Positions 15,044 to 60,938 of a stretch of 64,000 nucleotides of DNA are shown here, one piece after another. The stretch's first letter is position 1, and each line of letters opens with the position of its first letter. Origin of the DNA: Sandarakinorhabdus glacialis (lineage in GTDB: Bacteria; Pseudomonadota; Alphaproteobacteria; Sphingomonadales; Sphingomonadaceae). The stretch covers positions 62,001 to 126,000 of the forward strand of contig NZ_BMJM01000006.1 of NCBI RefSeq assembly GCF_014643455.1. The letters run 5' to 3'. The translations under genes and the position numbers were made by a program. The notes below the pieces were generated by a model. The model was not told the DNA's origin. It did not search any database and worked only from the letters and a program-made list of their open reading frames with translations.

Positions 15044-17620
15044 ATGAACATCGAAAAATTCACCGACCGCGCCAAGGGTTTCCTGCAATCGGCGCAAACC
15101 GTCGCCATCCGCAACAACCACCAGCGTGTCGCCCCCGAACACGTCCTCAAGGCGCTCCTCGAGGATGAGGAAGGCATGGCCTCCAACCTCATACGCGCCG
15201 CCGGCGGCCGCCCCGAAACCGCGATACAGCAGACCGATCAGGCCCTCGCCAGGATCGCACAGGTCTCCGGCGCAGGTGCCCAGCAGCTCAGCTGGGACAG
15301 CGACACCGTCCGCGTCATCGACAGCGCCGAACAGATCGCCACCAAGGCCAAGGACAGCTTCGTGACTGTCGAACGCCTGCTGGTTGCACTGACGCTGGCG
15401 ACCACCACAGCCGCCGGAAAGGCGCTCGCCGCCGCCGGCGTAACCGCGCAAGCCCTTAACACGGCGATCGAATCTGTCCGCAAGGGCCGCAGCGCCGACA
15501 GCGCCGGCGCCGAGGCGAACTTCGACGCGCTGAACAAATACGCCCGCGATCTCACCCAGGCGGCGCGCGACGGCAAGCTCGATCCGGTCATCGGCCGAGA
15601 CGAAGAAATCCGCCGCACCATCCAGGTCCTGGCGCGCCGCACCAAGAACAACCCGGTCCTCATCGGCGAACCCGGCGTCGGCAAGACCGCCGTCGTCGAA
15701 GGCCTGGCGCTGCGCATCGCCAACGGCGACGTTCCCGATGGCTTGAAGGACAAGCGCCTGATGTCACTGGACATGGGCGCGCTGATCGCCGGCGCAAAAT
15801 ACCGCGGCGAATTCGAGGAACGCCTCAAGGGCGTGCTCGACGAAGTCCGCGCCGAAGGATCGGACGTCGTGCTGTTCATCGACGAGATGCACACATTGGT
15901 CGGGGCAGGGGCCTCCGAAGGCTCGATGGACGCCTCGAACCTGTTGAAGCCGGCGCTCGCCCGCGGTGAACTCCACTGCATCGGCGCGACGACGCTCAAC
16001 GAATATCGCAAATATGTCGAAAAGGACGCTGCACTCGAACGGCGCTTCCAGCCGGTCTTGGTTGGCGAACCGACCGTCGAGGACACCATCTCGATCCTGC
16101 GCGGGCTCAAGGAGAAATACGAACTTCACCACGGCGTCCGCATCACGGACGGCGCCATCGTCGCTGCGGCAACCCTCTCGAGTCGCTACATTTCCGATCG
16201 TTTCCTGCCCGACAAGGCGATCGACCTGATGGACGAGGCCGCCTCGCGGTTGCGTATGGAAGTCGAATCCAAGCCCGAGGAAATCGAGAACCTCGACCGC
16301 CGGATCGTCCAGCTGAAGATCGAGGAAGGCGCGCTGCAACGCGAATCCGATACGGCTTCGAAGGATCGGCTGGTCGCGCTCCAGACCGAACTGTCGGACC
16401 TTGACGAACAATCGCGCGCCCTGACGATGCGGTGGCAGGCGGAAAAGGACAAGCTCGACGCCGCGACCAAGATCAAGGAGCAGCTTGACGCCGCGCGCCT
16501 CGAAGTCGAGCAGGCGCAGCGCGGCGGCGACTATGCCAAGGCCGGCGAACTGACCTATGGCCGCATCCCCGACCTCGAGCGCCAGCTTGCCGAGGCCGAG
16601 ATCGCCACCGCCAATGCCATGACCCGCGAGGAAGTCACCGGCGACGATATCGCCGCCGTCGTGTCGCGCTGGACCGGCATTCCTGTCGACCGCATGCTTG
16701 AGGGTGAGCGCGACAAGCTGTTGAAGATGGAAGACCTTTTGTCGGCACAGGTCATCGGCCAGGCCGCCGCCGTGCACGCCGTATCATCGGCGGTCCGCCG
16801 CTCGCGCGCCGGGTTGCAGGACCCCAATCGCCCGCTCGGCAGCTTCCTGTTCCTCGGGCCGACGGGAGTCGGCAAGACCGAATTGACCAAGTCGCTCGCC
16901 AATTTCCTGTTCGACGATCCGCGCGCGATGGTCCGCATCGACATGTCGGAATATATGGAAAAGCACGCGGTTGCCCGGCTGATCGGGGCGCCTCCGGGCT
17001 ATGTCGGCTATGAGGAGGGCGGGATATTGACCGAAGCCGTCCGGCGGCGGCCCTACCAGGTCGTGCTGTTCGACGAGGTCGAGAAGGCGCACGGCGATGT
17101 CTTCAACATCCTGCTCCAGGTGCTTGATGACGGCCGGCTGACCGACGGGCAGGGGCGGACGGTCGATTTTACCAACACGATCATCATCCTGACGTCGAAC
17201 CTCGGCAGCCAGTATATCGCCGCGCTACGCGACGACCAGCAGGTGGCCGATGCCGAGGCGCAGGTGATGGAAGTGGTTCGCGGTCACTTCCGGCCCGAGT
17301 TCCTCAATCGCCTGGACGAAATCGTGCTGTTCCAACGGCTTGGTGAAAGCGCGATGGCGCCGATCGTCGACCTTCAGGTGGCGCGGGTCCAGGACCTGCT
17401 CAAGGATCGCAAGGTGACGCTCGACCTGACCGACGCGGCGCGGCGCTGGCTGGCGCGGGTCGGCTATGACCCGGTCTATGGTGCCCGGCCATTGAAGCGC
17501 ACCGTCCAGAAGCATCTGCAGGATCCGCTGGCCGACCTGATCCTGGCTGGCAAGGTCTCAGACGGCAGCACGATTCATGTCGACGAAGGCGATGGCAAGC
17601 TGGCGCTGACCCCGCAATAG
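15044..17620 (+). CDS. clpB: ATP-dependent disaggregase ClpB
   Basis: An 858-residue Hsp104/ClpB chaperone that, with DnaK, extracts proteins from aggregates. Domain order: Clp N-domain repeats (1-150), AAA1 with Walker A GEPGVGKT at about 208-215 and Walker B VLFIDEMH near 284, a coiled-coil middle domain (about 405-530, the ClpB hallmark absent from ClpA), AAA2 with GPTGVGKTE at about 605-613 and [11 protein letters not shown], and the C-terminal small domain. Length matches E. coli ClpB (857). GGAGG lies upstream of the ATG. A heat-shock-like promoter precedes it. Confidence 0.97.
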
Positions 17621-17623
17621 GGG

Positions 17624-17890
17624 TCAGTTGCCGCCGGGCTTGGTCCGTGTCGTGTCGACCAGGTCGCGACTGAACGCTTGGTTGGTGTCGTCGATATAGG
17701 CCCATTGCGCCCGAGTGTGGCAGGTTTTCCTAGACTTCACCAAGCTGCCGGTTTCCTTGTCGCGGCGGCAGATTGTTTCCTGCATCCGGTCGGCGGGCGC
17801 CACCGCGGCGGCGGTTTCGACGACTGCGACGGGTGCCGCGGCTATCGTCCAGAAAGCAACCGCTGCCGCAATGATGCTGATCGATCGCAC
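17624..17890 (-). CDS. Small secreted protein of unknown function (88 aa)
   Basis: A GTG start (17890) with AGGAGAG five bases upstream gives an 88-residue protein. It has a signal peptide (1-30, rich in Ala/Val) and a mature part of about 55 residues with two cysteines in ICRRDKETGSLVKSRKTCHT, then RAQWAYID. The two cysteines probably form a disulfide in the periplasm. Small exported proteins with this K-TCHTRAQW pattern seem common in sphingomonads, with no known role. It converges on clpB, only three bases apart. Confidence 0.75.
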   Translation of the reverse strand: MRSISIIAAAVAFWTIAAAPVAVVETAAAVAPADRMQETICRRDKETGSLVKSRKTCHTRAQWAYIDDTNQAFSRDLVDTTRTKPGGN

Positions 17891-17969: not shown

Positions 17970-19013
17970 ATGGGGGAGCGCTGGCCAAATGGTGGGATGA
18001 CGCAAGCCATAGCCAATATCGGCGCCATCGTGCGCGATCCCCTCTGGTATCCGCATCGCTATGATCCGGGCCATGATGCGTTTCAGTTCAGGCCGCTCTC
18101 CCGCGATCAGCACCGCAGCGCGACGTTCCTGACCGACGAGTATCTGGGTGCCGCCGCGCCGACGGCGATCCGGCGCAGCGATATCGAGACGGTGCCATAC
18201 GATCAGGCACCTCTGCATTTCATCTTTCATTCGGCGTTCTGTTGTTCGACGGTGCTGGCGCGGGCCTTCGATATAGATGGCGTTTCGATGGGGTTGAAGG
18301 AGCCCGTGCTGCTCAACGACATCATCGGCTGGCAGCACCGGGGCGGCACCGCGGCACAGATCGCGCCGGTGCTCGATGACGGACTGGCGCTGCTGTCGCG
18401 GCCATTTGCCAGCGGCGAGGCAGTGGTCATCAAGCCTTCGAACGTCGTCAACGGGCTGGCGCCGGGAATGTTGTCGATGCGTCCCGAAGCCCGGGCGTTG
18501 CTGCTGCATTGTCCGCTGCGGACGTACCTGGGCTCGATCGCCAAGAAGGGCATGACCGGGCGCTTGTGGGCACGCGAGCTGCTGGTCAAGCAATTGGCCG
18601 AGGGGCTGCATGGCTTTGGCTATTCGGCGCAGGATTATATCGGACAAACCGATTTGCAGGCGGCGGCGATCGGCTGGTTGGCGCAACATGCGTTGTTCCT
18701 CAAGATGATCGGGCATTTTCCGGGCCGGATCCGGACGATCGACTCTGCAACGCTGATGGCGAACCCGGCAAGGTCGATGGCGGCGCTGGCGGCGTTTTAC
18801 GGGCTCGATGTCGACGTCCAGGCTGTCATCGCGGGCCCGGCATTCACCCGGCACAGCAAGTTCGGCAATGATTTCAGCAGCGAGACGCGCGATGCCGAGG
18901 TCGAGCAGTCGGTGACCGCGCACCATGACGAGATCGAGAAGGTCGTGGCCTGGTCGGACGCGGTGGCGAAATCCGTGGGGATTCCAATGGTCTTGCCGGC
19001 ACCGCTGCTCTAA
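17970..19013 (+). CDS. Sulfotransferase-like protein associated with a TonB receptor
   Basis: A 347-residue soluble protein. Residues about 72-105 (LHFIFHSAFCCSTVLARAF, then GLKEPVLLND) resemble the 5'-phosphosulfate-binding loop and following helix of sulfotransferase/P-loop proteins, although the Ser-Gly-Thr-Thr form is replaced by Cys-Cys-Ser-Thr. Residues 130-165 hold VVIKPSNVVNGLAP, and the C-terminal half is helical. Catalysis has not been shown for this family as far as I know. It converges on the TonB receptor at 19260, beyond which lies an aspartyl hydroxylase. ATG 17997 is an alternative start. Confidence 0.65.
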   Translation: MGERWPNGGMTQAIANIGAIVRDPLWYPHRYDPGHDAFQFRPLSRDQHRSATFLTDEYLGAAAPTAIRRSDIETVPYDQAPLHFIFHSAFCCSTVLARAFDIDGVSMGLKEPVLLNDIIGWQHRGGTAAQIAPVLDDGLALLSRPFASGEAVVIKPSNVVNGLAPGMLSMRPEARALLLHCPLRTYLGSIAKKGMTGRLWARELLVKQLAEGLHGFGYSAQDYIGQTDLQAAAIGWLAQHALFLKMIGHFPGRIRTIDSATLMANPARSMAALAAFYGLDVDVQAVIAGPAFTRHSKFGNDFSSETRDAEVEQSVTAHHDEIEKVVAWSDAVAKSVGIPMVLPAPLL

Positions 19014-19034
19014 GGCCTGCTCGCGACCGCTGTC

Positions 19035-19050
19035 ACATGTGTTAACATGT
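19035..19050. repeat. Short palindromic repeat ACATGT-GTTA-ACATGT
   Basis: Two copies of the self-complementary hexamer ACATGT flank GTTA, giving a symmetric 16-base site in the convergent region after the sulfotransferase-like gene. It could bind a dimeric regulator or be chance. The remaining convergent region (19051-19205) shows nothing recognisable. Confidence 0.35.
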
Positions 19051-19205
19051 TCCACATTTTCCGCTTTCGCACGTTTTCGTGTGAAGCGCATTTCCGGCGC
19101 GCGAACGCAGCGATCCGGCCGGGTGTCGCTGTGTGATCTGGCTGCCAGACGCATATCGCCGCCGTAGCGGAAACGGGGCGTGTAGGACAGGTGACGACAG
19201 GCAAA

Positions 19206-19234
19206 GAAAAGGGCGGGTCTTTCGACCCGCCCCT
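19206..19234 (-). terminator. Intrinsic terminator of the TonB receptor gene
   Basis: On the minus strand a 9-bp GC stem (GGGCGGGTC 19211-19219 paired with 19224-19232) is followed by TTTTCTTTGC. It lies 26 bases after the receptor stop codon. Confidence 0.85.
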
Positions 19235-19259
19235 TCAGTCGCTTTCGATGTCTTGCAGA

Positions 19260-22200
19260 CTAGAACTTGAGGTTCACCTGCATTGCGTAACGGCGGCCCA
19301 GCGCGTCGTAGGTCGACGGATAGGTGTTGCCGCTGTTGAAGGTCGTCGAACCGGCGTTCGAACCCACGACCGGAGGCTGCTTGTTGAGCAGGTTGGTCAC
19401 GGTGAGAACCAGCGAGAGGTTCTCCATGACGCTGACGCGGCCGCTCAGATCGAAGTAATCGTACGCCTTGATCTTCGAGTATGCCGGCAGATACGAACCC
19501 TGCTCGACGACATCAAGGGGCTCCTGCTCGAGACCGTCGATGTGACGCCACAACAGCGAGATGTCAAAGTCGTTGAAGCCAAGCGTTGTGCGCAGCGACG
19601 ACTGCCACTTGGGCTGCAGCGAGCCGGTAAATGAGCAGTTGACCGAGTAGAAGCCAACGCACTCACGGCTCACGCCGCCGCCTGCTGCCGTTACATCGGC
19701 ATTGAACATCGAGTGGAACGTGTAGTTGAAGTTACCCGTAATGCCCAGCTTGGCGAAGCCGATATCGTTCGAATAGTTCAAAGTCACGTCGATACCGTCG
19801 GTTTCGATGCGGCCGAGGTTCGACGAAGCCAGGAACAGGCCCGGTGTCGTCGAAGGATCGCCGTCGAGACCACCAGTTGCCGGATTGCGCCGGATGGCAA
19901 GGCAAGCAGGGCTCGCAGCGCTGGCTGCTGACAGGTTACCAAAGCAGGCGGCAACAGCATCACCAGGAAGCGGGTTCGACACCGCGTCCTTGACGGTGAT
20001 GTTGTAGTAATCGACCGTCAATGCCAGGCCAGGAGCGAAGGTTGGCTGGAACACAGCGCCGACAGTCCAGGTGTTGGCCGTTTCCGGCTGCAGTTCGAGG
20101 TTGCCACCAGCCGTGGCGTTTGCCTGGCCCGCGGTCGGGTTCAGGATGCCGCCGATCGAAGTGCTTGGCGCACCCTGTGCAAGGCAGACCGCACGCAGGT
20201 TGGCGTTCGCCACTGGGGCGGCGCCGGCGCAAGGATCGTTCGACAGGTTGGTCAGGCCGGTGTTCTGCGGCGAAAACAGTTCGCCGATGTTCGGAGCGCG
20301 AACAGCGCGGCTATAGTTACCGCGAAGCTTGAGACCCTGAACCATTTCCCAGGTACCGCCGGCCTTCCAGGTGAAGGTGTTGTAGGCAGGCTCGGTCGGT
20401 GCATCGACCTTGTAGTCGGAGTAGCGCGCGCCGCCTTCCAGGGTCAGGTTTTCGAAGAATGGCTTGTCCTGGATGAGCGGAACGATAAGCTCGCCATAGA
20501 CTTCCTTGACTTCATAGCCGCCGGTGATGTCCGGAGCTGCGCCGCCGGCACCGCCAAGTTCGCCAGCCGTCTTGGCAAGCGAATCGGAACGCTGCTGTGC
20601 CTTGTACTTGCGATATTCGCCGCCGATGGCGAAGCCGATGGCATCGGTAGCGCCGGGAATGGCGACGCCCACATCACCCGAAACGATACCACGCACCTGG
20701 GCGAGCGACGTCTTGACGGTCGTCGTGCTCTCGCCGTTGATATAGGCTGCGCCGGCCTGGCTGATCGAACCCGCTGGGCCGAAGTAGTTGATCGGAACGC
20801 AGGTCTTGTCGGCGGTCTGGCAGACCGGGTTAGCGGCGGTGCCGTTGACCAGAAGCGTGTTGCGAACCTTCGAGGCCAGCACATAACCCTGAAGGGTCTG
20901 GCGGTTCTCGCTTTCACCGTAAGAACCGGACAGATCCCAATCGACGGAGTCGGTGACCTTGCCCTTCAGGCCGGCACGATAATCGAACAACGTGGTCGAA
21001 TAGTCGCTGATCCGCGGACCGACTTCGGTGGTGCGACGGGCCAGAGCCGTATCGACCGTGCGATAGTTTGGATCCGTTGGTCCCGTGGCAACCGCGGCTG
21101 CAGCGCACTGAGCAGGCGTGAAGCGCGCCTGGTAAGTGCCGGCAGCACCGACGTTGGCAGCGCAGAACTGGTTGCGCAGGCCGGCTGGCAGGAACGGGTT
21201 GTTGAGGTTGATCGTTACCGGGGTGCCGAATGCGCCCGATGGCGCAATGATGGTCTTGACGTTGTTCTTCGAGAACAGGCCGCGGGTATAGAATTGCAGC
21301 GAGTCCGAAACGTCGTACTTGGCGGCGCCATAGATGTTGAAACGTTCGAATGGCGTCTGGAAGATGTTGTAAGGGTTGAAGTTGAACGGCGCGTACAGCC
21401 CGCGCGCCGTGCCCGTGGCGGGGTCAAGCTGAAGGTTGCCGTTGGCAACCGCAGGGTTGGTGCTTGGCAAACCGGTGACGGGGTCGATCGGACGAAGGCC
21501 GGTGAAACGCGACGGAATAGCCGTTCCCGAACCGCTTGGAGCGCCAGTATAGGTGCTACGGCCGAAGATCGAGAAGTCGCGGGCGCCCTGATAGACAGGA
21601 TCGGCCTTCTGGTAGCCGACCGACAGGACGGCGTTGCCGCGGCCTTCGTCGAAGTTGCCACCGACGGTCAGATCGGCGCGATAGGTTGCGCCATCGCCGG
21701 CTTCGGTCAGGCCGGTGCCGAGCTGAAGATCGACACCCGAGAAGTCCTGCTTGGTGACGAAGTTGACGACGCCGGAGATGGCATCGGCACCATAGGTCGT
21801 CACGGCGGCGCCGGTCAGGGCGTCAACGCGCTCGACGAGAGCCAGCGGGATGTTGTTGAGATCGACGCGGCCGGCGATGCCGGCAGGTGCGATGCGGTTG
21901 CCGTCGAGAAGGACGATGTTGCGGGTCGAACCGATACCGCGAAGATCGACGAACGAGGCGCCGCCGTTGCCGTTGTTGACGGCCGAACCGATCGAAGGAA
22001 CGACGCCCGGGATGTCGCGAAGGACTTCTTCGGCGACGTTCGAAGCGCGCAGCTGGATGGTGTCGGCGGTGGTCACGGTGACCGGAGCAGCCGAAATCAG
22101 GTTCGGGTTGCGGATCAGCGAGCCGGTGACGACGATCGTGCCTTCGTCAGTCGTCGTGGCGACGGTTTCCGGCGTCGGCACGGCCTGGGCCAGTGCGGCG

Positions 22201-22286
22201 CCAGGAATGGCGAGAATGGCGATGACGAACGTTGCGACGCCGCCCTTCAGTGCTGCTCGGTTGAGCGAAGATTTCGCAGAGATCAC
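19260..22286 (-). CDS. TonB-dependent receptor (large, oligopeptide/substrate uptake type)
   Basis: An outer-membrane receptor of about 1008 residues. The signal peptide ends AALAQA (about residue 34). A short linker holds a TonB-box-like EGTIVVTGSLI, then the plug domain (about 60-170, LRGIGSTRNIVLLDGNR) and a 22-strand barrel ending ALGRRYAMQVNLKF with the terminal Phe needed for Bam assembly. GTG 22286 is preferred to TTG 22292 because AAAGGA lies seven bases before it. Flanking genes encode a sulfotransferase-like protein and an aspartyl hydroxylase, which suggests a peptide or modified ligand rather than iron. Substrate not provable. Confidence 0.9.
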   Translation of the reverse strand: MISAKSSLNRAALKGGVATFVIAILAIPGAALAQAVPTPETVATTTDEGTIVVTGSLIRNPNLISAAPVTVTTADTIQLRASNVAEEVLRDIPGVVPSIGSAVNNGNGGASFVDLRGIGSTRNIVLLDGNRIAPAGIAGRVDLNNIPLALVERVDALTGAAVTTYGADAISGVVNFVTKQDFSGVDLQLGTGLTEAGDGATYRADLTVGGNFDEGRGNAVLSVGYQKADPVYQGARDFSIFGRSTYTGAPSGSGTAIPSRFTGLRPIDPVTGLPSTNPAVANGNLQLDPATGTARGLYAPFNFNPYNIFQTPFERFNIYGAAKYDVSDSLQFYTRGLFSKNNVKTIIAPSGAFGTPVTINLNNPFLPAGLRNQFCAANVGAAGTYQARFTPAQCAAAAVATGPTDPNYRTVDTALARRTTEVGPRISDYSTTLFDYRAGLKGKVTDSVDWDLSGSYGESENRQTLQGYVLASKVRNTLLVNGTAANPVCQTADKTCVPINYFGPAGSISQAGAAYINGESTTTVKTSLAQVRGIVSGDVGVAIPGATDAIGFAIGGEYRKYKAQQRSDSLAKTAGELGGAGGAAPDITGGYEVKEVYGELIVPLIQDKPFFENLTLEGGARYSDYKVDAPTEPAYNTFTWKAGGTWEMVQGLKLRGNYSRAVRAPNIGELFSPQNTGLTNLSNDPCAGAAPVANANLRAVCLAQGAPSTSIGGILNPTAGQANATAGGNLELQPETANTWTVGAVFQPTFAPGLALTVDYYNITVKDAVSNPLPGDAVAACFGNLSAASAASPACLAIRRNPATGGLDGDPSTTPGLFLASSNLGRIETDGIDVTLNYSNDIGFAKLGITGNFNYTFHSMFNADVTAAGGGVSRECVGFYSVNCSFTGSLQPKWQSSLRTTLGFNDFDISLLWRHIDGLEQEPLDVVEQGSYLPAYSKIKAYDYFDLSGRVSVMENLSLVLTVTNLLNKQPPVVGSNAGSTTFNSGNTYPSTYDALGRRYAMQVNLKF

Positions 22287-22559
22287 AGGCAAATCCTTTA
22301 CCTAAAATGTTGCGCGATGATCACCACGTTGTGTCGCCATCAAGATTGATGGCCCCCTTCGCGACGATGGACCCTGCCCCACAGCAGCGCACCGCTCCAG
22401 CCCTTATGGCCTGTGCTGCCTTCTCCCCAAAGCGCGTCCGCGTGTAAAGCCGCCGCCTTGTCGCGAGGCGATTAGGAAAAACAGTGTTGCGCTGCGGCAA
22501 CAGGATGATGACCGTCCGGCGACTCTGTAATTAAGATTGTGTAAAGTTTTCGACCTCGA

Positions 22560-23741
22560 TCAGCCGGCGCCGAAATCCTCGAGAGCCTGTCCCGACGCCG
22601 CGATTGTCGCGACATAGTCGCGGACCAGCTCGCGCTCCGAAAGTGTCAGGTGCGGATTCCAGGTGTCGATGATCAGCACCGCGCGCAGCGTGTCGGAATT
22701 GTTCCAGGCTTCGTGCTCGATGGTATCGTCGAAGGCGAATGCCTCGCCTTCGATCCAGGGCCGCGTCTCGTTGCCGACGCGGAAGCTGCAGCCGTCGGGC
22801 ACGATCAGCGGCAGGTGGATGATCGTCCGGATGTTGGTGGCACCGGTGTGCGGCGGGATATGGGTGCGCGGTTTCAACAGCGAAAAGAACGCCACCGGGC
22901 CGCGTGTCTCCAGGTCGAACAGCGGCAACCGGTCGAGCAGGGCGGCGGTTTGCGGGCAATGCGCACGCACCGCGTCCTGCGGGATGCCGTGCTGGATGAG
23001 GAACTGCGCCGCCCAGGCATCATTATGGTTAAGCGCCGCCCATTGGTTGACCGGCGTGCCCGGGGCATAGGCCACATAGGGAGCAAAGCCGTTGTTTGCC
23101 CCGGCCATCAGCGCCTGGAGTTCGGCGCGGATGACGGGGGTCGCGGCCTCGAGCTCGGCGAGCCAGGGGAAATGCGCGCGCGGCACGAACTGTTCGGCGG
23201 GCAGATAGGGATAGTGGAGAACCAGCGGCGCTTGCTGGAAGACCCGCCGCCGGCCGAGCGCGACGTCGACGAAGTGGCGGAAGCGCTCGCTGTCCTCGGC
23301 CGGCAGCGATTGCAGGGCAGGGGCCAGCGCCGTGTCGAGCCGGGCCGAGACCTGCGCTTCGGCCTTGGCGACAAAGGCCCGCGCATGGGCGAGGCCGGCG
23401 GCAAAACCCGGCCCATGCGGCGCGGCGGGATCGACCGCCGCCAGCAGCCGCTGGTAATGTTCGAGCGCTGCGACAGGCTCGCCAGCGTCCTCGAGCAACC
23501 GCGCCTTGCCGAGCAGCGCATGATCGAAATAGGGTGCCAGATCGAGCGCGCTGTCGAGCGCCCGGCCCTGCGCGGCGGTATCCCTCGCCGCGCCATGCGC
23601 GTTGGCGAGATTGTACCAGAGCAGCGGCGAATCCGGGTCGGCGGCAACGGCGCGCGTTAACAGCGCGGCTGCTGTCGGTGCATCGCCCTGGCCGAGCGCG
23701 CGCAGCCCGGCGGCATTCAGCGCGGCTGGGTCATCGGTCAT
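22560..23741 (-). CDS. Aspartyl/asparaginyl beta-hydroxylase with TPR domain
   Basis: A 393-residue protein. Residues 1-100 form TPR-like helix pairs (LLWYNLANAHG, YFDHALLGKARLLEDAG). Residues about 220-375 are the Asp/Asn beta-hydroxylase domain of the 2-oxoglutarate/Fe(II) oxygenases. Conserved elements are PPHTGATNIRTIIHLPL (His298), then FDDTIEHEAWN (His343) and R353. The family uses two His iron ligands and hydroxylates Asp or Asn side chains, so a protein or peptide substrate is expected. The ATG at 23741 has GGAGG five bases upstream and overlaps the end of the M23 peptidase gene. It is the last gene of the xseA operon, 270 bases before the TonB receptor. Confidence 0.88.
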   Translation of the reverse strand: MTDDPAALNAAGLRALGQGDAPTAAALLTRAVAADPDSPLLWYNLANAHGAARDTAAQGRALDSALDLAPYFDHALLGKARLLEDAGEPVAALEHYQRLLAAVDPAAPHGPGFAAGLAHARAFVAKAEAQVSARLDTALAPALQSLPAEDSERFRHFVDVALGRRRVFQQAPLVLHYPYLPAEQFVPRAHFPWLAELEAATPVIRAELQALMAGANNGFAPYVAYAPGTPVNQWAALNHNDAWAAQFLIQHGIPQDAVRAHCPQTAALLDRLPLFDLETRGPVAFFSLLKPRTHIPPHTGATNIRTIIHLPLIVPDGCSFRVGNETRPWIEGEAFAFDDTIEHEAWNNSDTLRAVLIIDTWNPHLTLSERELVRDYVATIAASGQALEDFGAG

Positions 23742-24543
23742 TGCTGCCTCCATCGATGAGTCGCGCGGGATCGACGCGGACGTCGGTCCAGGTCACGCCC
23801 CAGTGCAGGTGCGGGCCTGTTGCACGCCCGGTGCGGCCGACGGTGCCGATCTGCTGGCCCCGTTCGACAAGCGCGCCCGGCACGACGTCGATCCGCGACA
23901 GGTGGAGGAACGCCGAGACCAGCCCGAAGCCGTGGTCGATCATGACCAGATTGCCCTCGAGCGTGAAGGGACCATCGGCGAGGCGCACGATGCCGGCGGC
24001 GGGAGCGAGCACCGGGGCGCCCGCGCCGGCGGCGATGTCGAGGCCCGAATGCGGCGCGGCGGGGGTGCCGGAGAAGATGCGTTGCGAGCCATAGACACCC
24101 GATATCGGTCCCTTGGCGGGTTTCCGGAAGCGGCCGTCCCACGCCATGCTGTCGCCGATGTCGGCGCGGGCGGCGGCGATCCTGGCGATCTCGGCGGGGC
24201 GGCGGGCTTCGAATTCGGCATCGGGCACAGGGCGCGGCGGCAACGTCGGCAGCGACTGGATCCGCCATTGGCGCGGCGCGACGTCGATGACGCGGGTGAC
24301 GGGCTGGCCGCCTTTCGTCCACACCAGCAATGCCTTGGGCTCGGCGTCGCGGCCGAAGCCGATGAGGAAACGGCCGCCAAGGCTGGTCTTGACCGGCTTG
24401 CCATCGAGGGTGAGCAACGTCGTGCCGGCGGGCACGGTCCCGCGCATGACGCCGCCCTGTTCCGGGGTGCCTTCGATTTTCAGGCCGTCTTCCGGGGCGG
24501 CGGCAATCAGGGCGACCGCCAACAGCCCTGCGACCAGCCTCAC
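23731..24543 (-). CDS. M23-family metallopeptidase (LysM-less lysostaphin type), exported
   Basis: This 270-residue protein has a signal peptide (1-15) and a beta-rich N-terminal domain (about 18-95). The C-terminal M23 peptidase domain shows the zinc ligands HSGLDIA (His/Asp) and HLHWGV (His). The family cuts peptide crosslinks in peptidoglycan or acts as an EnvC-like activator; all ligands are present, so it is probably active. It overlaps the genes on both sides (DUF2093 by ATGA, hydroxylase by 11 bases), so expression is coupled to xseA. Confidence 0.9.
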   Translation of the reverse strand: MRLVAGLLAVALIAAAPEDGLKIEGTPEQGGVMRGTVPAGTTLLTLDGKPVKTSLGGRFLIGFGRDAEPKALLVWTKGGQPVTRVIDVAPRQWRIQSLPTLPPRPVPDAEFEARRPAEIARIAAARADIGDSMAWDGRFRKPAKGPISGVYGSQRIFSGTPAAPHSGLDIAAGAGAPVLAPAAGIVRLADGPFTLEGNLVMIDHGFGLVSAFLHLSRIDVVPGALVERGQQIGTVGRTGRATGPHLHWGVTWTDVRVDPARLIDGGSNDR

Positions 24544-54283: not shown

Positions 54284-57256
54284 CTAGAACCGGAAACCGA
54301 TGGCGCCGCCATAGCGCCGCGGTTCAAGCGTGAAAATGTTGGAGAACAGTCCCGACGACTGGTCGGTCACGTACAGTCCGGTGATCGCGTTGTTGGCGAA
54401 CAGGTTCTGCACGAAGGCCCGGGCGTACCAGCGGTCGTTGTTGCCGTTGACCTGGATCTGGCCGTTGACGACGGTATAGCTCGGCACCCGGTTGATGAAG
54501 GTGTTGTGGATGCTGCCATAGCTTTCGCCGGTAAAGGCGAGGTCGAGCCGCGGCGTGACCGACAGGCCGCTGGCCAGCTCGATGACATATTGCGCACCCG
54601 CCGAGAATTTGTACGTCGGCGCCTGCGGTACGTTGTTGTCCTTAACGTTCGTCCGGACGCCGTTATAGGCGACCGATACCCCGGCTGCCGCCGCAGAGGC
54701 GGCTAGCGAATTACAGATGCTGTAGGCACCGGTAACGCCGGTCGGGATGCCGTGGCCCGACGGGAAAGCGACGGGTGACCGCAGGTCGGTGCCGGTCGCG
54801 GCATTGATGCCGGAATTGACCGCGGCGACATAGCCGTTGGCGAGCGCCGAATTGCCCCGGACGTTTGGTACCACGGCGCAGTTGGCGGCGTTGGTGATAT
54901 CCTTGATGATCACCACATCGTCGCGGCCGCCCGATGGATCGGCGGGGTTGATCAGGAAAGTGTCGTCGGCGACCGCGGTGTGAAGGTAGCTGGCGTTCAG
55001 GTTGACGGTGAACTCCCTGGTCGGCTGGATGATGAACTCGCCTTCGACGCCGTAGATGGTGGCGTTGATGTTCTGGTTGACCGAGGTCCGCTCCTGGATG
55101 CTGCTCAGCTGCAAGCCTTTGTACTTGTAATAGAATGCCGTGAGGTTGGCGCGGAAAGTACCATCGAGGAAGGTGTTTTTGCTGCCGACTTCAAAGGCAT
55201 CGACGAATTCGGGCGAAAAGTTTGTCGGGATCGACGAGTTCGGGCTGAGCGGCGGGTTGATGCCGCCCGATTTATAGCCGCGCGAGTAGAAGGCATAGAG
55301 AAGGTTCTCGTCGGTGATCTTGTAGTCGACGACAAAACGCCCGGTGAACTCGCTGAACTTCACTTTCTGGCGGGCAAAGTCCTGCTTGCCGGGGGTGTTC
55401 TGGTCGAAATCGGCGCAGCCGAGATTGGCGACCGCGGTTCCGATGGCGTTGGGGCAATTGAACAGCGTGGTCCGCGCCGTCACCGACTTGTCGTCGTTGT
55501 TGTAGCGCAGCCCGGCGGTGAACTTGAGCCTGTCGTTGACCTCGAAATAGGCCTCACCGAAGAGGCCGTAGGACTTGAGGCGGTATTCCGGCGTATTGCT
55601 GCGGAAGAACGGTGCGGCGAGGAAGGCCGGGGTTCCGCCAATCGAGCCGAGCACGCCGGCGGCATAATCGAGCGCGAAGGTGTTGACGTAGTAAGCGACG
55701 TCATTGGCCTTGGTGTCGATGTAGATACCACCCAGCAGGAAGTTGAACTTGCTGTCGAAGTTGCTGGTGATGATGCCTTCACCTGTAAACGACCGGCTGC
55801 CGCCGCTCGAACGATCGAAGCCGAGTGGCACGGAGGCGCAGATGCCGTTGCCGGCGGCGCCAAAGATGCCGCTGTTATTCGGCTCGGGCTGCGAGCTGCA
55901 ATAGGGACCATTGGGGCCGTTCGGGATCAACAGGTTGGCGACCGGCTTGAGCGATGGAACGCCATTGTTGGCGAGGAACTGCAGGCCGGTCAGACCGGCG
56001 ACATAGGCCTTGGGGTTCGACGCCTGGCTGTTATAGTCCTGCTGCGAACGGGTCGAGTTTTTCTGATACATTCCAGAAACTTGCGCGGTTATTGAGCCGA
56101 AATCATGCCGCACGCGCGCCATGTATTGCTGCTCTTCGGACTGAAACTGCGGTTCGTAACCGGTGTTGACCGTCCGCAGGTCGGCCGGGTTGACCTCGCC
56201 GGTGAACATGTTGCTCGTGCCGTTTAGATTGTTCAGTGCGAGGAGACCGGCAGCCGGACCAAAGCCGTTGAGAGCGAGGAACTGCTTCGAGGTCAGGATG
56301 GAGCCCAATGTCGAGTTGCCGTTGGTGATGCCGTTTCGCAACTGGCCGGGAAGGCAGCCGAGGACGCCGGTCGGATCGGTGTCGCAAAGCTGCTTCTGGA
56401 TACGGGCGCGATTGTCCTTCTCATGGAAATAATAGCCCATGAGGTCGACGGTCGTATTATCGGTAGGTTCCCACCGGACCGAGCCGCGGAACGAATACAG
56501 GTTGCGGTTATCGAAGCTGGTGTCGTCGTAGGTGTTGTTGGTGAAGCCGTCGCGGTTGAGATAGACGCCGGCCAACCGCACGGCGAGCGTATCGGTCAGC
56601 GGCATGTTGATCATGCCCTTGACCTTGATCGAGTTGTAATTGCCGTATTCGCCTTCGCCGGCCGCGTGGATGCCACTGGAATCGGGCTTGGCGGTAATGA
56701 AGTTGATGACACCCGAGGTGGCGTTGCGGCCATATAGCGTACCCTGCGGCCCGCGCAGGACTTCGACGCGCTCGAGATCGTAGAACTCGGTTTCAAACAG
56801 CCGGGTGCCCAACAGCGGCATCTCGTTGAGCGCGATGCCGGTGGCGGCATCGCAGGTCGTGCCGACGCACAGATTGCCGATGCCTCGGATGGTAAAGCTC
56901 GGCGACCCGAAATTGGTCTGGGTAAAGGTGATGTTGGGCAGGGTCAGCTGCAGGTCCGAGGTGTTGTTGATCTGCTGCTTCTGCAGCGCCTCGGCGGAAA
57001 ATGCCGTCAGCGCGATCGGCACGTCCTGCAGGCTCTGCGCGGTGCGCTGCGCCGTGACGACGATTTCCTCGAGGCTGCCGCCGGTCGATGCAACCGGTAC
57101 CGGGCCCGTATTCGCCGGCCCGGCGAGTGCGGCCGAAGGCGCTCCGGCCGGCGCGGGCGTCGATCCGGCGGTCTGTGCGGACAACGGCGCTGCAAACAGG
57201 CCGAGCAACGAGACGCCGCCGATCAAGCCCGCACGGTATTGTGACATGGTGTTCAT
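54284..57256 (-). CDS. TonB-dependent receptor of the catabolic island
   Basis: A 990-residue outer-membrane receptor. A signal peptide (to about residue 28, PLSAQ) and a Pro/Ala-rich linker precede the TonB box LEEIVVTAQRTAQSLQDVPI. The plug (about 85-200, SFTIRGIG, RVEVLRGPQGTLYGRNATSG) follows, then a barrel ending YGGAIGFRF with terminal Phe. The sequence type is the sphingomonad catabolic class, which takes up hydrophobic or aromatic substrates rather than iron. The start at 57256 has GGGGAGGG upstream. Its genetic link to TetR, LLM and SDR genes supports a substrate-uptake role. Confidence 0.92.
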   Translation of the reverse strand: MNTMSQYRAGLIGGVSLLGLFAAPLSAQTAGSTPAPAGAPSAALAGPANTGPVPVASTGGSLEEIVVTAQRTAQSLQDVPIALTAFSAEALQKQQINNTSDLQLTLPNITFTQTNFGSPSFTIRGIGNLCVGTTCDAATGIALNEMPLLGTRLFETEFYDLERVEVLRGPQGTLYGRNATSGVINFITAKPDSSGIHAAGEGEYGNYNSIKVKGMINMPLTDTLAVRLAGVYLNRDGFTNNTYDDTSFDNRNLYSFRGSVRWEPTDNTTVDLMGYYFHEKDNRARIQKQLCDTDPTGVLGCLPGQLRNGITNGNSTLGSILTSKQFLALNGFGPAAGLLALNNLNGTSNMFTGEVNPADLRTVNTGYEPQFQSEEQQYMARVRHDFGSITAQVSGMYQKNSTRSQQDYNSQASNPKAYVAGLTGLQFLANNGVPSLKPVANLLIPNGPNGPYCSSQPEPNNSGIFGAAGNGICASVPLGFDRSSGGSRSFTGEGIITSNFDSKFNFLLGGIYIDTKANDVAYYVNTFALDYAAGVLGSIGGTPAFLAAPFFRSNTPEYRLKSYGLFGEAYFEVNDRLKFTAGLRYNNDDKSVTARTTLFNCPNAIGTAVANLGCADFDQNTPGKQDFARQKVKFSEFTGRFVVDYKITDENLLYAFYSRGYKSGGINPPLSPNSSIPTNFSPEFVDAFEVGSKNTFLDGTFRANLTAFYYKYKGLQLSSIQERTSVNQNINATIYGVEGEFIIQPTREFTVNLNASYLHTAVADDTFLINPADPSGGRDDVVIIKDITNAANCAVVPNVRGNSALANGYVAAVNSGINAATGTDLRSPVAFPSGHGIPTGVTGAYSICNSLAASAAAAGVSVAYNGVRTNVKDNNVPQAPTYKFSAGAQYVIELASGLSVTPRLDLAFTGESYGSIHNTFINRVPSYTVVNGQIQVNGNNDRWYARAFVQNLFANNAITGLYVTDQSSGLFSNIFTLEPRRYGGAIGFRF

Positions 57257-57713
57257 TGTAGCCCTCCCCACATATCCGCCGCGCTCCTCTTGTTCGGGGA
57301 GTCAAGGCAGTCACAAAGGCATATTGCCCGGGTGATTTGTGCAGTTGGACGTAGTTTTTCCGACTTGTCTAGCTCCCAACATGCCCGTAACGGGCCGCCG
57401 CCGGACCTCTCCCCTTGTGATTATTCCACAACACTATCAAAACTATGGTGTCGGTCACACATTCGCAGCCAGGCTGCTTGAGTCTTCTACTAATCAACTC
57501 GCTAGGGTGCCCGCCACCCGCGGCGATACCGTCGTTGTCGCACGCAACGATGTCCGGCGTTGCCTGGGCGTGGATCGAACCGACTCGCCTCACGCTCTTT
57601 CCCGTCACCCCCTTTTTCCCCGTCACCCCGGCGAAGGCCGGGGCCCATCTCGCACTCTCTCAAAACAAAACCACCACGCAACCACCCGAGCTCACCCCCC
57701 CCGCACCCACCCC
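57257..57713. other. 457-bp intergenic region upstream of the TonB receptor
   Basis: This region should hold the receptor promoter. It contains a short palindrome GCCCGTAACGGGC (57383-57395), the AT-richer stretch TGTGATTATTCCACAACACT (near 57416-57435) and the family D repeat at 57622-57650. No gene or known riboswitch was recognised. The cluster motif CATAACACGT was not found here. Confidence 0.55.
57622..57650. repeat. GC hairpin repeat (family D)
   Basis: GTCACCCCGGCGAAGGCCGG followed by GGCCCATCT forms a 7-bp stem (CCCCGGC 57626-57632 with GCCGGGG 57637-57643) around a GAAG loop. This motif is a widely dispersed sequence in alphaproteobacterial intergenic regions. Only one full copy is seen in the window; a truncated CGTCACCCC lies just upstream at 57603. 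Confidence 0.65.
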
Positions 57714-58931
57714 TCAAGGCCGCACAAAAATCACCCGCCCCCCGCGCATCACCAGCTGCACATCCGCCAAATTCTCCACCCCCACCGCCGGGTCACCACC
57801 CACTACAACCAGATCAGCGACATATCCCCTGGCCACCCGCCCGCGCCGATCCGCCTCGCCGAATGTCGCCGCCGGCGCCGTCGTCATCGCCGCCAGCACC
57901 CCGCGCCAATCCAGCGCCTTGCCCATCAGCCGCAACTCAGGCGCCGTATCGAACAATTCGGTAAAACCCGCATCGGTGCCGAACAAAATCGTCCCGCCCG
58001 CCTTGTGCAGCGCCGCCGTCTGCTGGACCGCCGCGCTGGTCGGCGTGCGCGCGTCCGGCGACGCATCGAACAGCGACAGCGTCGGCACCATCGCCACCTT
58101 TCGCGCCGCGATCGACGCCGCGTATTCCGCCGTCCAGTCCTCCATCAACGGCGCCGAATGCGCCAGGATATCGACGCCATTGGCCACCGCCAGGTCGGTC
58201 CCCTCGCGGTCGGTGCCATGCGCAAACACCGGCTTGCCGAGCCTGTGCGCCGCGTCCGCCAGCGCGCGGATCGTCGCTGCCGGCATGTGCACCACGCCTT
58301 GCGGCCCGCCGACGATCGATCCGGTGAACAGCTTGATCCCCGCCGCCCCCGCCGCCACCTGCGCCCGCACCCGCCGCTCGGCATCCGCCACCAAGACGAT
58401 CTCCGCCGACGGCAGCTTGAAGACGCTGTAGAATTCCCGCGCATATATCGGCGTCGCGCCGGTCGGATAAAACGGCTCGCCGACGCTCAACACGCGCGGC
58501 CCGGCGATTTTGCCGGTCGACACCCGCCCGCGAACATTCGCCGAAACCGCCGTCGTCGACGCAAGATCGAAGATCGTCGTGAACCCCCAGCGGGTAAAAT
58601 TCTTCTCGAGCTCGGCCCCAAGCGCCGCATCGGTCGTGGTCACGGCATTCAGCAGCACCGGCGTCGTCAGATGGACATGGTTGTTCCAGAATCCCGCCAC
58701 CAGGTACCGCCCCGCCTGGTCGATCACCCGATAGCCCTTGGGCACCGGCGTCGACGCGCGCGTCCCGACGCGCGTTACCCGGCCATCGACGACCAGCACC
58801 ACCGCATCGCGGATCACCGCCGCATCGGGCGACGCATAAACCGCCGCCCCGATGATCGCCGTATTTTCGGCCGCAGCCGGTCCCGCCGCCAACGCCAGCG
58901 CAGCGACAACCGCGCGTGCTATCCCGATCAT
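57714..58931 (-). CDS. Amidohydrolase family protein, exported
   Basis: This 405-residue metal-dependent hydrolase has a signal peptide (1-22). The amidohydrolase barrel shows NNHVHL (the HxH metal pair), the probable bridging Lys in GIKLFTGS, His in FAHGTDREG and AHSA, and Asp in FGTDAGF. These support an imidazolonepropionase/prolidase-like branch acting on cyclic amides or peptides in the periplasm. GGGGAG lies seven bases before ATG 58931. It is transcribed in the same direction as the TonB receptor but 457 bases upstream, so the link to the island is only positional. Confidence 0.86.
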   Translation of the reverse strand: MIGIARAVVAALALAAGPAAAENTAIIGAAVYASPDAAVIRDAVVLVVDGRVTRVGTRASTPVPKGYRVIDQAGRYLVAGFWNNHVHLTTPVLLNAVTTTDAALGAELEKNFTRWGFTTIFDLASTTAVSANVRGRVSTGKIAGPRVLSVGEPFYPTGATPIYAREFYSVFKLPSAEIVLVADAERRVRAQVAAGAAGIKLFTGSIVGGPQGVVHMPAATIRALADAAHRLGKPVFAHGTDREGTDLAVANGVDILAHSAPLMEDWTAEYAASIAARKVAMVPTLSLFDASPDARTPTSAAVQQTAALHKAGGTILFGTDAGFTELFDTAPELRLMGKALDWRGVLAAMTTAPAATFGEADRRGRVARGYVADLVVVGGDPAVGVENLADVQLVMRGGRVIFVRP

Positions 58932-58951
58932 CGGCAAGCTCCCCAATCGTC

Positions 58952-59413
58952 TCAGCCCCTGATCCGCGTCCACACCTGGTTACGGCAGATCACCTGCGCC
59001 GCACAGCCTTCGACCCGGATGCTGTTGCCATCCTCGAGCAATCGCGCCGTCCCCGTCACCCGCCGGTTCATGTCGGGCACGAACACCCGCCCCCGCCACT
59101 CGCGCGGCCCACGCGCCGTGAATTCCTCGAACAATTGCGTACCGACCAGCGGATCGGTGCCGCCCCGCCGCGCATCGCCCCGCGCCTTTTCATCGGCATA
59201 TACGATCGTGCCGCAGACCAGCTTGCCGCACCTTGCCGCCCGGATATGCACCGATCCCGACGGGTTCTGCCACGTCCCCAGATACGCGCCATCGGGCAAT
59301 CTCGCCACCGCCGCCGCCGGATCGGGGCTGTTCGCCGGGCTGTTTGCGGGGCTCTGGGCCATCGCCGAACCCGCCAGCAACCCCAGCGCGATAATCCCCA
59401 GTCGCATCTTCAT
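58952..59413 (-). CDS. DUF2147 exported protein
   Basis: A 153-residue exported protein: signal peptide (1-18, LLAGSAMAQ), a short Ser/Pro/Asn repeat (SPANSPANSPD), then the DUF2147 domain with YLGTWQNPSGSVHIRAARCG, LVCGTIVYADEK, and a WRGRVFVPDMNRRVTGTARL strand run. Four cysteines (two pairs) probably form disulfides. DUF2147 proteins are lipocalin-like periplasmic proteins of unknown ligand. ATG 59425 is an alternative start. Confidence 0.85.
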   Translation of the reverse strand: MKMRLGIIALGLLAGSAMAQSPANSPANSPDPAAAVARLPDGAYLGTWQNPSGSVHIRAARCGKLVCGTIVYADEKARGDARRGGTDPLVGTQLFEEFTARGPREWRGRVFVPDMNRRVTGTARLLEDGNSIRVEGCAAQVICRNQVWTRIRG

Positions 59414-59432
59414 CCCAACCCCCATATCGACC

Positions 59433-60938
59433 CTAGCGCCGCCGCACCCCCACCGTCAGCCGCGCCAACGGATGACTTGCCCCGGCATTCGGCACCCAGC
59501 CATCGACGTTACGCCCCACCAGCGTCCATTGCACCGGCGTTATCAGCGGGATCATCGGCGGCGCCGTCATCATCCGCGCCTCGACCGCCGCCAGCATCGG
59601 CGCGCGCCCCGCTGCCGGTGCCCTGCGGGCGGCTGCCAGCATCGTATCGGCTTCCGGGTTGCAATAGGCGCCCGCCCCGCACCGCCACCGCATCAGCAAC
59701 GCCGCGCTGTCGGGCACCGGCACGCTCGCCTCGGTCACCGCCAGGTCGAAATCGCCCCGCGCCAGCAGCTTGTCGCGCTCCACCGCGCTCACCTCGGTCA
59801 CCGCCAGCAACACCCCGACCTGCGCCCAGTCGTCGGCAACCCGCTCGGCGATACTGCGATGCTCGCGCCCCGGCGGTAGCAACAGCACCAGCCGCAGCGG
59901 CTGGTCCAATGTCCACCCCGCGCCCGCCAGCAGCCGCCGCGCCTCTGCCACCCGCGCCGCCGCACCCAGCCGGCGCCAGTCGCCTTCCTCCAGCACCGCA
60001 CCACCCGCCAGCAGCGGCGGCAACAGCCCGTCGGCAGCGACGATCGCCCCGATGCCCATCGCCGCCGCCAGCCGCCCCCGGTCGACCGCCATCGCCAGCG
60101 CCCGCCGTATCGCCGGATCCGCCACCGGCCCGCGCAAGCCATTGGCGACATAGCCATAAATGCCCCACAGCGGATCGACTTGCAGCATTTCGGGCCGCAC
60201 CGAGGCCCGCACCTCGCCCAGCCCCGCCAGCCCGTCGCCGAACACCAGATTGGCTTCGCCCCGCATGAACCCGGCGATCGCCGCGCGCAGATCCGGGCTC
60301 GTCGCCACGCTGATCTGCGCCGGCCGCGCCGCCGGGCTCGCCGCCATGCTCTTGCGCTGCAAAACCCGCCGCTCGGCGGTCCCACCGACGCGATACCGGG
60401 CCAGCGACACGTCCGCCTTGTCCGAAACCAGCCCCAGCGCCGGCTCCGCCAGCCACCCGAGCAACAGCGGCGACGGGCTCTCCAGCCGCAACTCCACCAC
60501 CCGTGCGATCGGCGCCGACACCCCCAGCTTGCTCGCCGGCGCGCGCTTCGCCGTCACCGCTTCGGACCCTACAATGCCCGCCATCACAAGCACCGGGTCG
60601 CGCCGACTACCAGCGCGGCGAAAGGCTGCCACCACGTCGCGCGCCACCAGCGTCTCGCCATTGCTCCACTGCGCCGGCCGCAACCGCAGTATAAGACTGC
60701 GCCCGTCATCGACGAACCGCCAGCTCGATGCCAGCCCCGCCACCGTCTGCCCGGCCTCGTCACGCGCCACCAGCCCCGGCTGCACCGCCTCTGCCACCAG
60801 CCGCTGCGCCAGTCCCTCCGGCTGCTCGGAATCGCCGATCACCACCACCGACAGCTTCGCCCCCTCGGGCGCGTCCGGAGAGCAGGCCGCCGCCGCCAGC
60901 GCCAACAGGCACACCAGGTTTCGCCATATCACCGCCAA
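59433..60938 (-). CDS. Peptide/nickel-type ABC substrate-binding lipoprotein
   Basis: A 501-residue lipoprotein. The signal ends ALAAAACS (Cys19). The mature protein has the solute-binding family 5 layout with GLASSWRFVDDGRSLILRLR, WSNGETLVARDVVAAFRRAG and a C-terminal lobe near IPLITPVQWTL. The family binds oligopeptides, opines or nickel for import. No ABC permease or ATPase gene accompanies it, and the length and Ala/Arg-rich inserts differ from OppA. An orphan binding protein or a wall-peptide scavenger are both plausible. Confidence 0.82.
   Translation of the reverse strand: MAVIWRNLVCLLALAAAACSPDAPEGAKLSVVVIGDSEQPEGLAQRLVAEAVQPGLVARDEAGQTVAGLASSWRFVDDGRSLILRLRPAQWSNGETLVARDVVAAFRRAGSRRDPVLVMAGIVGSEAVTAKRAPASKLGVSAPIARVVELRLESPSPLLLGWLAEPALGLVSDKADVSLARYRVGGTAERRVLQRKSMAASPAARPAQISVATSPDLRAAIAGFMRGEANLVFGDGLAGLGEVRASVRPEMLQVDPLWGIYGYVANGLRGPVADPAIRRALAMAVDRGRLAAAMGIGAIVAADGLLPPLLAGGAVLEEGDWRRLGAAARVAEARRLLAGAGWTLDQPLRLVLLLPPGREHRSIAERVADDWAQVGVLLAVTEVSAVERDKLLARGDFDLAVTEASVPVPDSAALLMRWRCGAGAYCNPEADTMLAAARRAPAAGRAPMLAAVEARMMTAPPMIPLITPVQWTLVGRNVDGWVPNAGASHPLARLTVGVRRR

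Follow-up and report, generated by a model that had tools for sequence, protein, structure and literature searches.

A recurrent sphingomonad locus suggests modification of a TonB-dependent receptor or its small secreted partner by a hydroxylase and a sulfotransferase-fold protein

In the 64,000-nt stretch of the Sandarakinorhabdus glacialis genome analysed here (contig NZ_BMJM01000006.1, positions 62,001 to 126,000; hereafter the window, whose own numbering is used below), the gene of a TonB-dependent receptor lies beside genes for a hydroxylase, a sulfotransferase-fold protein and a small, putatively secreted protein, and the repeated occurrence of these four suggests a system for the chemical modification of a protein or peptide at the bacterial surface. 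Our tentative reading, to which we give somewhat less than an even chance, is that of a receptor and small-secreted-protein locus with its own cytoplasmic modifying enzymes, whose substrate is a protein of the locus. The three genes reported by a first-pass annotation were confirmed in place. The 1008-aa receptor (19260..22286, minus strand, GTG start; Pfam plug and barrel) is flanked by SUL, a 347-aa sulfotransferase-fold protein of an unnamed family (17970..19013, plus strand; 338 aa if started at 17997; assigned from its model and from profiles), and by HYD, a 393-aa protein with tetratricopeptide repeats (TPR) and an aspartyl/asparaginyl beta-hydroxylase (AspH) domain (22560..23741, minus strand; Pfam and PDB alignment). 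A fourth gene, not mentioned in that annotation, was read as an open reading frame (ORF) at 17624..17890 (minus strand, GTG start behind GGAGAG); it encodes an 88-aa protein with two Cys residues and the motif CRRDKETGSLVKSRKTCHTRAQW, and lies on the 3′ side of the receptor gene and on the same strand, with SUL between both.

Conservation of this neighbourhood was assessed in one genome per species across 84,980 species, and the loci studied were the best 80 of 278 relatives. Because our home-made gene callers missed genes, the counts rest on tblastn. Among the 59 loci with ample flanks (at least 5.5 kb on the left and at least 7 kb on the right; hereafter roomy loci), the receptor was found in 53, an AspH gene in 52 and both in 46, which bore out the earlier proposal that gene order or co-occurrence might extend to relatives. 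Other genes recurred as well, namely a TPR-linked sulfotransferase (20), a SUL paralogue (11) and a TauD dioxygenase (11; Pfam names from representatives), and some relatives carried a second AspH gene. The nearest AspH gene was divergent and on the left in 40 of 52 loci, and the order seen in the window, with AspH beyond the receptor and on the receptor's strand, was rarer (5/52); the side and strand of HYD vary between loci and its closeness stays. SUL also adjoins the receptor in the Kordiimonadaceae loci L074, L085 and L087. The largest arrangement displayed, from Sphingomonas montana (L140), comprises HYD, SUL, HYD, TPR-sulfotransferase, receptor, F4, SUL paralogue and TauD. F4 is a 174-aa family (L098:17743-18267 and similar), weakly VasI-like (E 0.094) and present in 42 of the 59 roomy loci; the drawn maps show it on the 5′ side of the receptor and transcribed in the opposite direction, and none was seen in the window.

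The receptor matched the Plug (PF07715, E 6.4e-19) and barrel (PF00593, E 9.9e-36) families of Pfam, giving the expected plug and C-terminal barrel, and reached no NCBIfam cut-off. Its predicted model (mean predicted local distance difference test, pLDDT, 82.8) shows many long strands. In a tree of 84 receptors built by a quick method, SUL was found within 5 kb of 57 receptors in a 64-row clade with branch support of 100, and for the remaining seven (two in G134, one each in G094, G084, G081 and G001, and one on the contig of L107) SUL was present elsewhere in the genome or contig. Of 13 related receptors outside the clade, 12 belong to genomes with no SUL match of at least 240 bits (the match in G099 scores 28 bits), and the thirteenth is from G107, whose SUL adjoins the other receptor copy. 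Most receptor rows with SUL entered the sample by way of SUL itself, and those without it came from the whole-genome search. Across 149 genomes of the family, the receptor (at least 44% identity) and SUL (at least 240 bits) occurred together in 31, the receptor alone in 14, SUL alone in 3 (G085, G089 and G110) and neither in 101, a co-occurrence with Fisher's P of 7e-18 by a statistic that ignores phylogeny. Together, these sequence comparisons support the conclusion that SUL follows one receptor clade. The same 149 genomes served as a less biased set for physical linkage, with 34 SUL orthologues (at least 240 bits), HYD at 169 bits or more and 77 listed receptor rows; since weaker rows were left out, the linkage counts here and below are lower bounds. 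Approached from the hydroxylase side, 40 AspH-TPR places of at least 250 bits had the receptor within 5 kb in 33 cases and SUL in 19.

These distributions bear on whether the neighbourhood could be plain vertical synteny, in which unrelated genes are held between clpB and xseA-purD. The housekeeping genes are indeed frequent at roomy loci (clpB 35, the M23-peptidase gene 28, xseA 27 and purD 27 of 59). Nevertheless, at the 18 roomy loci where none of the four was found, HYD persisted in 15, the receptor in 12 and at least one of the two in all 18. HYD also remains near despite changing its side and strand, the genomes G094, G001 and G095 hold SUL and a receptor of this type at separate places, and membership of the receptor clade predicts the presence of SUL. 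We therefore disfavour the synteny explanation and consider it very unlikely.

Several receptor positions distinguish the SUL-linked clade. The earlier annotation had proposed a look at conserved Asp, Asn and Tyr sites. In a comparison of receptors within and outside the clade, Tyr468 was present in 64 of 64 and in 0 of 13, respectively; Thr679 was present in 98% and 8%, respectively. Val662, Pro734, Leu577, Gly578, Arg335 and Asp435 also differed between the two sets, and a six-residue insertion at positions 630-635 was clade-specific. According to the model and to a reading of sides by strand order, Tyr468, Leu577, Gly578, the insertion, Thr679 and Pro734 would lie in or beside extracellular loops, to which the ten Cys residues of the receptor were also assigned, and Arg335, Asp435 and Val662 fall in strands. 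Such a pattern would fit a modified or re-targeted outer face. Separately, in L071 and L078 (7018-8499, minus strand; the window's genus or near it), a 493-aa truncated protein resembling a TonB receptor directly follows the AspH gene (Plug E 2.7e-5 in the L078 copy) and is possibly a receptor decoy or remnant. In one relative, masked bases had made the receptor frame appear too long.

The small protein carries the motif C-x5-[TI]GSL[VI]-x3-[KR]-x-C-x-T-x-x-[EQ]W behind a hydrophobic N-terminus, which we judged by inspection to be a probable signal peptide. A search of its own genome up to an E-value of 1 returned the window copy as the sole match. The motif pattern occurred 57 times in the 80 loci and not once in their 1,468,524 bases reversed, a control that shows only the chance rarity of the pattern, as reversal also destroys coding structure. 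In the 56 loci with 9.9 kb on either side, none of the 37 motif matches was more than 3.1 kb from SUL, and all shared one strand. When the receptor served as the reference, an ORF with the motif was found 3′ of it, within 6 kb and on the same strand, at 51 of 84 loci under the stricter receptor match (52 of 86 under a looser one), and on the opposite strand at 0 of 84. Ten of these ORFs lie 232 to 314 bp past the receptor, all at receptors without SUL there, 19 lie 1.2 to 1.7 kb past it, more by the length of SUL, and others are further away with extra genes between. From the spacing with and without SUL, the receptor and the small protein look like the older pair, between which SUL, and often HYD, would have been placed.

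The 347-aa protein had been called sulfotransferase-like from its letters. Its sequence gave no match in Pfam, NCBIfam or PDB, and PDB searches with a single or profile query returned nothing up to an E-value of 10. In contrast, the AlphaFold2 model obtained from the window protein and 43 natural relatives (pLDDT 92.6) gave a confidently predicted sulfotransferase fold: Foldseek placed the curacin sulfotransferase and the human and tick tyrosylprotein sulfotransferases (TPSTs) at the top, the first eight matches had E-values of 8e-6 to 7e-5, probability 1.00 and template-modelling (TM) scores of about 0.4 to 0.5, and sulfotransferases made up 49 of the 50 PDB matches listed (TM about 0.25 to 0.5). 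A wide profile of 41 SUL relatives, with identity down to 24%, aligned by HHalign with the TPR-Sulfotransfer_3 proteins of such loci at 96.5% (E 7.7e-10), and a representative of the latter matched TPSTs by sequence (best E 2.4e-9). Seven residues (F53, H87, S93, E111, P112, K155 and K297) were invariant in 41 of 41 relatives, and Glu111 aligned with the catalytic base of TPSTs, the second Glu of their ‘GEET’ motif. As regards translation start, the homologues agree better with the ATG at 17997 (residue 10), and the pLDDT of the model stays below 50 over residues 1-9. On the basis of the model and the alignment, we class SUL as a divergent family of sulfotransferase fold that has preserved a set of active-site-like residues.

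The comparison with sulfotransferases that use 3′-phosphoadenosine-5′-phosphosulfate (PAPS), suggested in the first-pass annotation, held for the fold and failed for two PAPS-site arginines, those of the 5′-phosphosulfate loop and of the 3′-phosphate RDPR motif, both missing in 41 of 41 relatives. Their absence leaves sulfate as only a candidate for the group that SUL would transfer. The register of the loop was taken from the profile alignment and the motif; in the window the segment reads HSAFCCST where PRSGTT was expected, and Ser189 of the 3′-phosphate motif is retained in 23 of 41 relatives. The genome (3.3 Mb in 40 contigs) encodes one APS kinase, so PAPS is probably made, and searches of it returned one SUL, two PF05118 genes, one PF13640 gene and, at other places, four Sulfotransfer_3 matches over the cut-off. 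The lost arginines would suit a SUL that is a dead or repurposed subunit helping a dioxygenase to find or hold its substrate, as would the lack of a Pfam match for the window protein, with 5 of 44 relatives weakly touching Sulfotransfer_3 (best E 0.0038), and the pairing of SUL with five groups of dioxygenases described below. The invariance of Glu111, Lys155, His87, Ser93 and Lys297, which resemble an active site, argues against such a subunit, and we regard this explanation as doubtful.

The association of SUL with dioxygenases extends beyond the receptor loci. A 2-oxoglutarate (2OG) dioxygenase gene was found within 1.5 kb of 79 of the 102 SUL-superfamily genes having 3 kb on each side. The 79 pairs comprised 58 with AspH-TPR (seven of them also with TauD and one with Oxy_3), 10 with Oxy_4, four with TauD alone, three with Oxy_3 alone, two with Oxy_5 and two with small AspH-like proteins, and representatives confirmed five Pfam-named groups: Asp_Arg_Hydrox, TauD, 2OG-FeII_Oxy_3, 2OG-FeII_Oxy_4 and 2OG-FeII_Oxy_5. 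Only the catalytic parts of the AspH-TPR and Oxy_5 queries were used, because the TPR parts could match TPR-sulfotransferases; full queries gave 80 pairs (three with Oxy_5). In L153, L160, L161 and L164, a SUL paralogue and TauD form a divergent pair, and the first three of these share flanking genes and have no receptor match in about 20 kb, indicating that the tie between SUL and dioxygenases is broader than the tie to the receptor. The recurrent pair suggests an enzyme family that has yet to be named and whose members probably have their chemistry in common. We also observed a TPR plus 2OG-FeII_Oxy_5 protein near TonB receptors at L189:7981-9495 (Pfam run on L189 only); its cluster, c13, has members in L159, L169, L182, L184, L190, L191, L210 and L211.

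HYD matched Asp_Arg_Hydrox (PF05118) with an E-value of 2.3e-42 and 145 bits, well over the cut-off of 22.6, and TPR repeats were also detected. Its catalytic domain aligned with AspH structures over 135 residues (E 1.1e-27) and kept the HTG and EHE motifs, whose His residues are presumably the iron ligands, and the Arg presumed to bind 2OG. A second TPR-AspH gene lies outside the window, about 28 kb from HYD, beside glnD and a mutase gene (G000:C6:55395-56492, minus strand), and may correspond to the AspH copy found next to SUL in relatives of the same genus. The best NCBIfam matches of HYD were the lipid hydroxylases OlsC (E 2.1e-27, 95.9 against a cut-off of 450 bits) and LpxO (E 7.8e-12, 44.9 against 500 bits), neither of which reached its cut-off. 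These distant matches raise the alternative that HYD is an acyl hydroxylase of the OlsC/LpxO kind which, with SUL, tailors a lipid or small-molecule ligand, the receptor taking up or exchanging a related compound. In several genomes, thiolase, SDR, enoyl-CoA hydratase and MarR genes occur close to receptors that fall just outside the SUL clade (L200, L201, L204, L205, L210 and L211; one representative of each gene tested), a hint of a lipid-like or acid ligand. However, HYD carries TPR repeats, which usually bind proteins, AspH is the best solved-structure match of its hydroxylase domain, TPSTs are among the best folds for SUL, and no acyl-CoA gene was recognised among the immediate neighbours of the three genes in the window. 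We consider a lipid or small-molecule substrate unlikely.

Returning to modification of a locus protein, HYD and SUL would most likely act on the receptor or the small protein prior to export. By inspection neither enzyme has an export signal, and both would work in the cytoplasm ahead of the Sec machinery on the receptor or on the small two-Cys protein. The dioxygenase would first hydroxylate a side chain, and SUL would then move a group (sulfate from PAPS, or a group from another donor) to the new hydroxyl or to a Tyr, Thr or Ser close by, altering the outward face of the receptor or its ligand. This order is proposed because SUL pairs with dioxygenases; no description of such hydroxylate-then-transfer chemistry was found in the literature searched. 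A more far-reaching proposal, which we hold to be distinctly improbable, is that a new class of modified, Sec-exported peptides has the small protein as its precursor. Dioxygenase-SUL pairs would hydroxylate the TGSL loop of this protein and next add sulfate or another group, the receptor would be dedicated to it, and SUL would be a general hydroxylase partner in a widespread two-step chemistry.

Several observations weigh against a locus that modifies its own receptor or small protein. The 80 loci share common descent and were selected on SUL similarity, the four housekeeping genes are common to about half of the loci, so that conservation is partly vertical synteny, and 6 of the 59 roomy loci lack the receptor and 7 lack HYD. 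In the 149 genomes, the 34 SUL orthologues had the receptor within 5 kb in 27 cases and AspH in 21, and both in only 19. The small protein is inconstant as well: no ORF with the motif was found 3′ of the receptor at 33 of 84 loci, three of which offered less than 6 kb to inspect, and its Cys loop contains no conserved Asp or Asn. The clade-specific receptor sites, Tyr468 included, may reflect descent alone. As for the enzymes, narrower profiles of SUL and the TPR-sulfotransferase aligned at only 9.8%, the Arg of PRSGTT is replaced by F in 30, H in 8, Q in 2 and Y in 1 of the 41 relatives, and the position of the first RDPR Arg holds Arg in 0 of 41. Finally, the dioxygenase queries were partly taken from SUL neighbours, and 23 of the 102 SUL genes had no dioxygenase within 1.5 kb; five of these had AspH at 3.4 to 4.8 kb, two had another dioxygenase at 4.7 kb or more, and 16 had none in the flanks examined.

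In the window, SUL is convergent with the receptor and HYD, and the three genes are therefore not one operon. The idea of a possible joint module put forward in the first-pass annotation stood as to the conserved neighbourhood, the sulfotransferase fold and the tie of SUL to a receptor clade. Between SUL and the receptor, we read a perfect 9-bp inverted repeat with a T-rich tail on the minus strand (19211..19232), judged from its sequence to be probably the terminator of the receptor transcript; a promoter and terminator scan performed at or below chance and did not list this hairpin. The ATG of HYD at 23741 is preceded by GGAGG, and the HYD start overlaps by 11 bases the upstream gene of an M23 peptidase (23731..24543, minus strand), which provides housekeeping context together with xseA and purD, as does clpB (15044..17620, plus strand) on the other flank. 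A PADLOC run on SUL, the receptor and HYD gave zero matches. Elsewhere in the window (54284-60914, minus strand), another TonB receptor, an amidohydrolase and an SBP_bac_5 binding protein stand in series, possibly as a peptide uptake locus.

To our knowledge, the ligands of most sphingomonad TonB receptors have yet to be assigned, and AspH-type hydroxylases and protein sulfation have received little study in bacteria. The locus supplies enzymes, two proteins that may be their substrates and Tyr468 as a candidate residue, and mass spectrometry here could reveal whether self-modification of uptake receptors, or of a peptide tied to a receptor, occurs in bacteria.

Known peptide pathways offer one further explanation, that the locus is left over from, or serves uptake in, a lasso-peptide pathway or another known pathway for ribosomally synthesized and post-translationally modified peptides (RiPPs). 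The gene table of PMC10040529 (Table 2) gives, for Pontixanthobacter and Allopontixanthobacter, adjacent cluster numbers to lasso B2, sulfotransferases, aspartyl beta-hydroxylase, PqqD and asparagine synthase. These genes may form a tailored lasso-peptide cluster in which a comparable pair of enzymes takes part. Our searches found no B2 (PF13471) match in the S. glacialis genome, whereas 62 of the 149 family genomes have one, and a lasso pathway in this genome is largely refuted by that absence. By our reading, SUL genomes were not obviously richer in B2 than others; lasso genes were not searched at related loci. We judge a lasso or other known RiPP origin highly improbable; an imported foreign lasso peptide is a possible ligand of the receptor. 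The main text of PMC7142613, on sphingomonad TonB transporters, names neither a hydroxylase nor a sulfotransferase, and no description of the three-gene locus, the SUL family or the small protein was found in the literature searched.

The closest known systems each resemble part of the locus. TPST1/2 and the curacin sulfotransferase domain are the best solved-structure matches of the SUL model (4gbm, E 8e-6; 3ap3_A, E 1.3e-5; probability 1.00), a wide profile, though not a narrower one, links SUL to TPST through the TPR-Sulfotransfer_3 proteins, and the catalytic Glu aligns; unlike TPST, SUL reaches TM scores of only about 0.4 to 0.5, has HSAFCCST for PRSGTT, has lost the first RDPR Arg and is named by no Pfam or NCBIfam model. 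HYD shares with animal AspH the catalytic domain with HTG, EHE and Arg, and the TPR repeats, but is bacterial, has no membrane anchor by inspection and is weakly OlsC/LpxO-like. PiuC/YbiX-type 2OG oxygenases adjoin siderophore receptors and thus likewise pair an oxygenase gene with a TonB receptor, whereas HYD belongs to another oxygenase family and the receptor to another type; we know of no sulfotransferase-fold partner in PiuC/YbiX systems. In the MNIO/bufferin RiPPs, as described in PMC12452194, precursors with a Sec signal and Cys motifs are modified by iron enzymes and a partner before export. That arrangement is a model for how the small protein might be handled, although the enzyme families at the present locus are others; no MNIO or DUF2063 gene stands among the named locus genes, and none was searched for. 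The enzyme families and folds are each known, as are oxygenase-receptor pairs, and no description of their combination at this locus was found in the literature searched.

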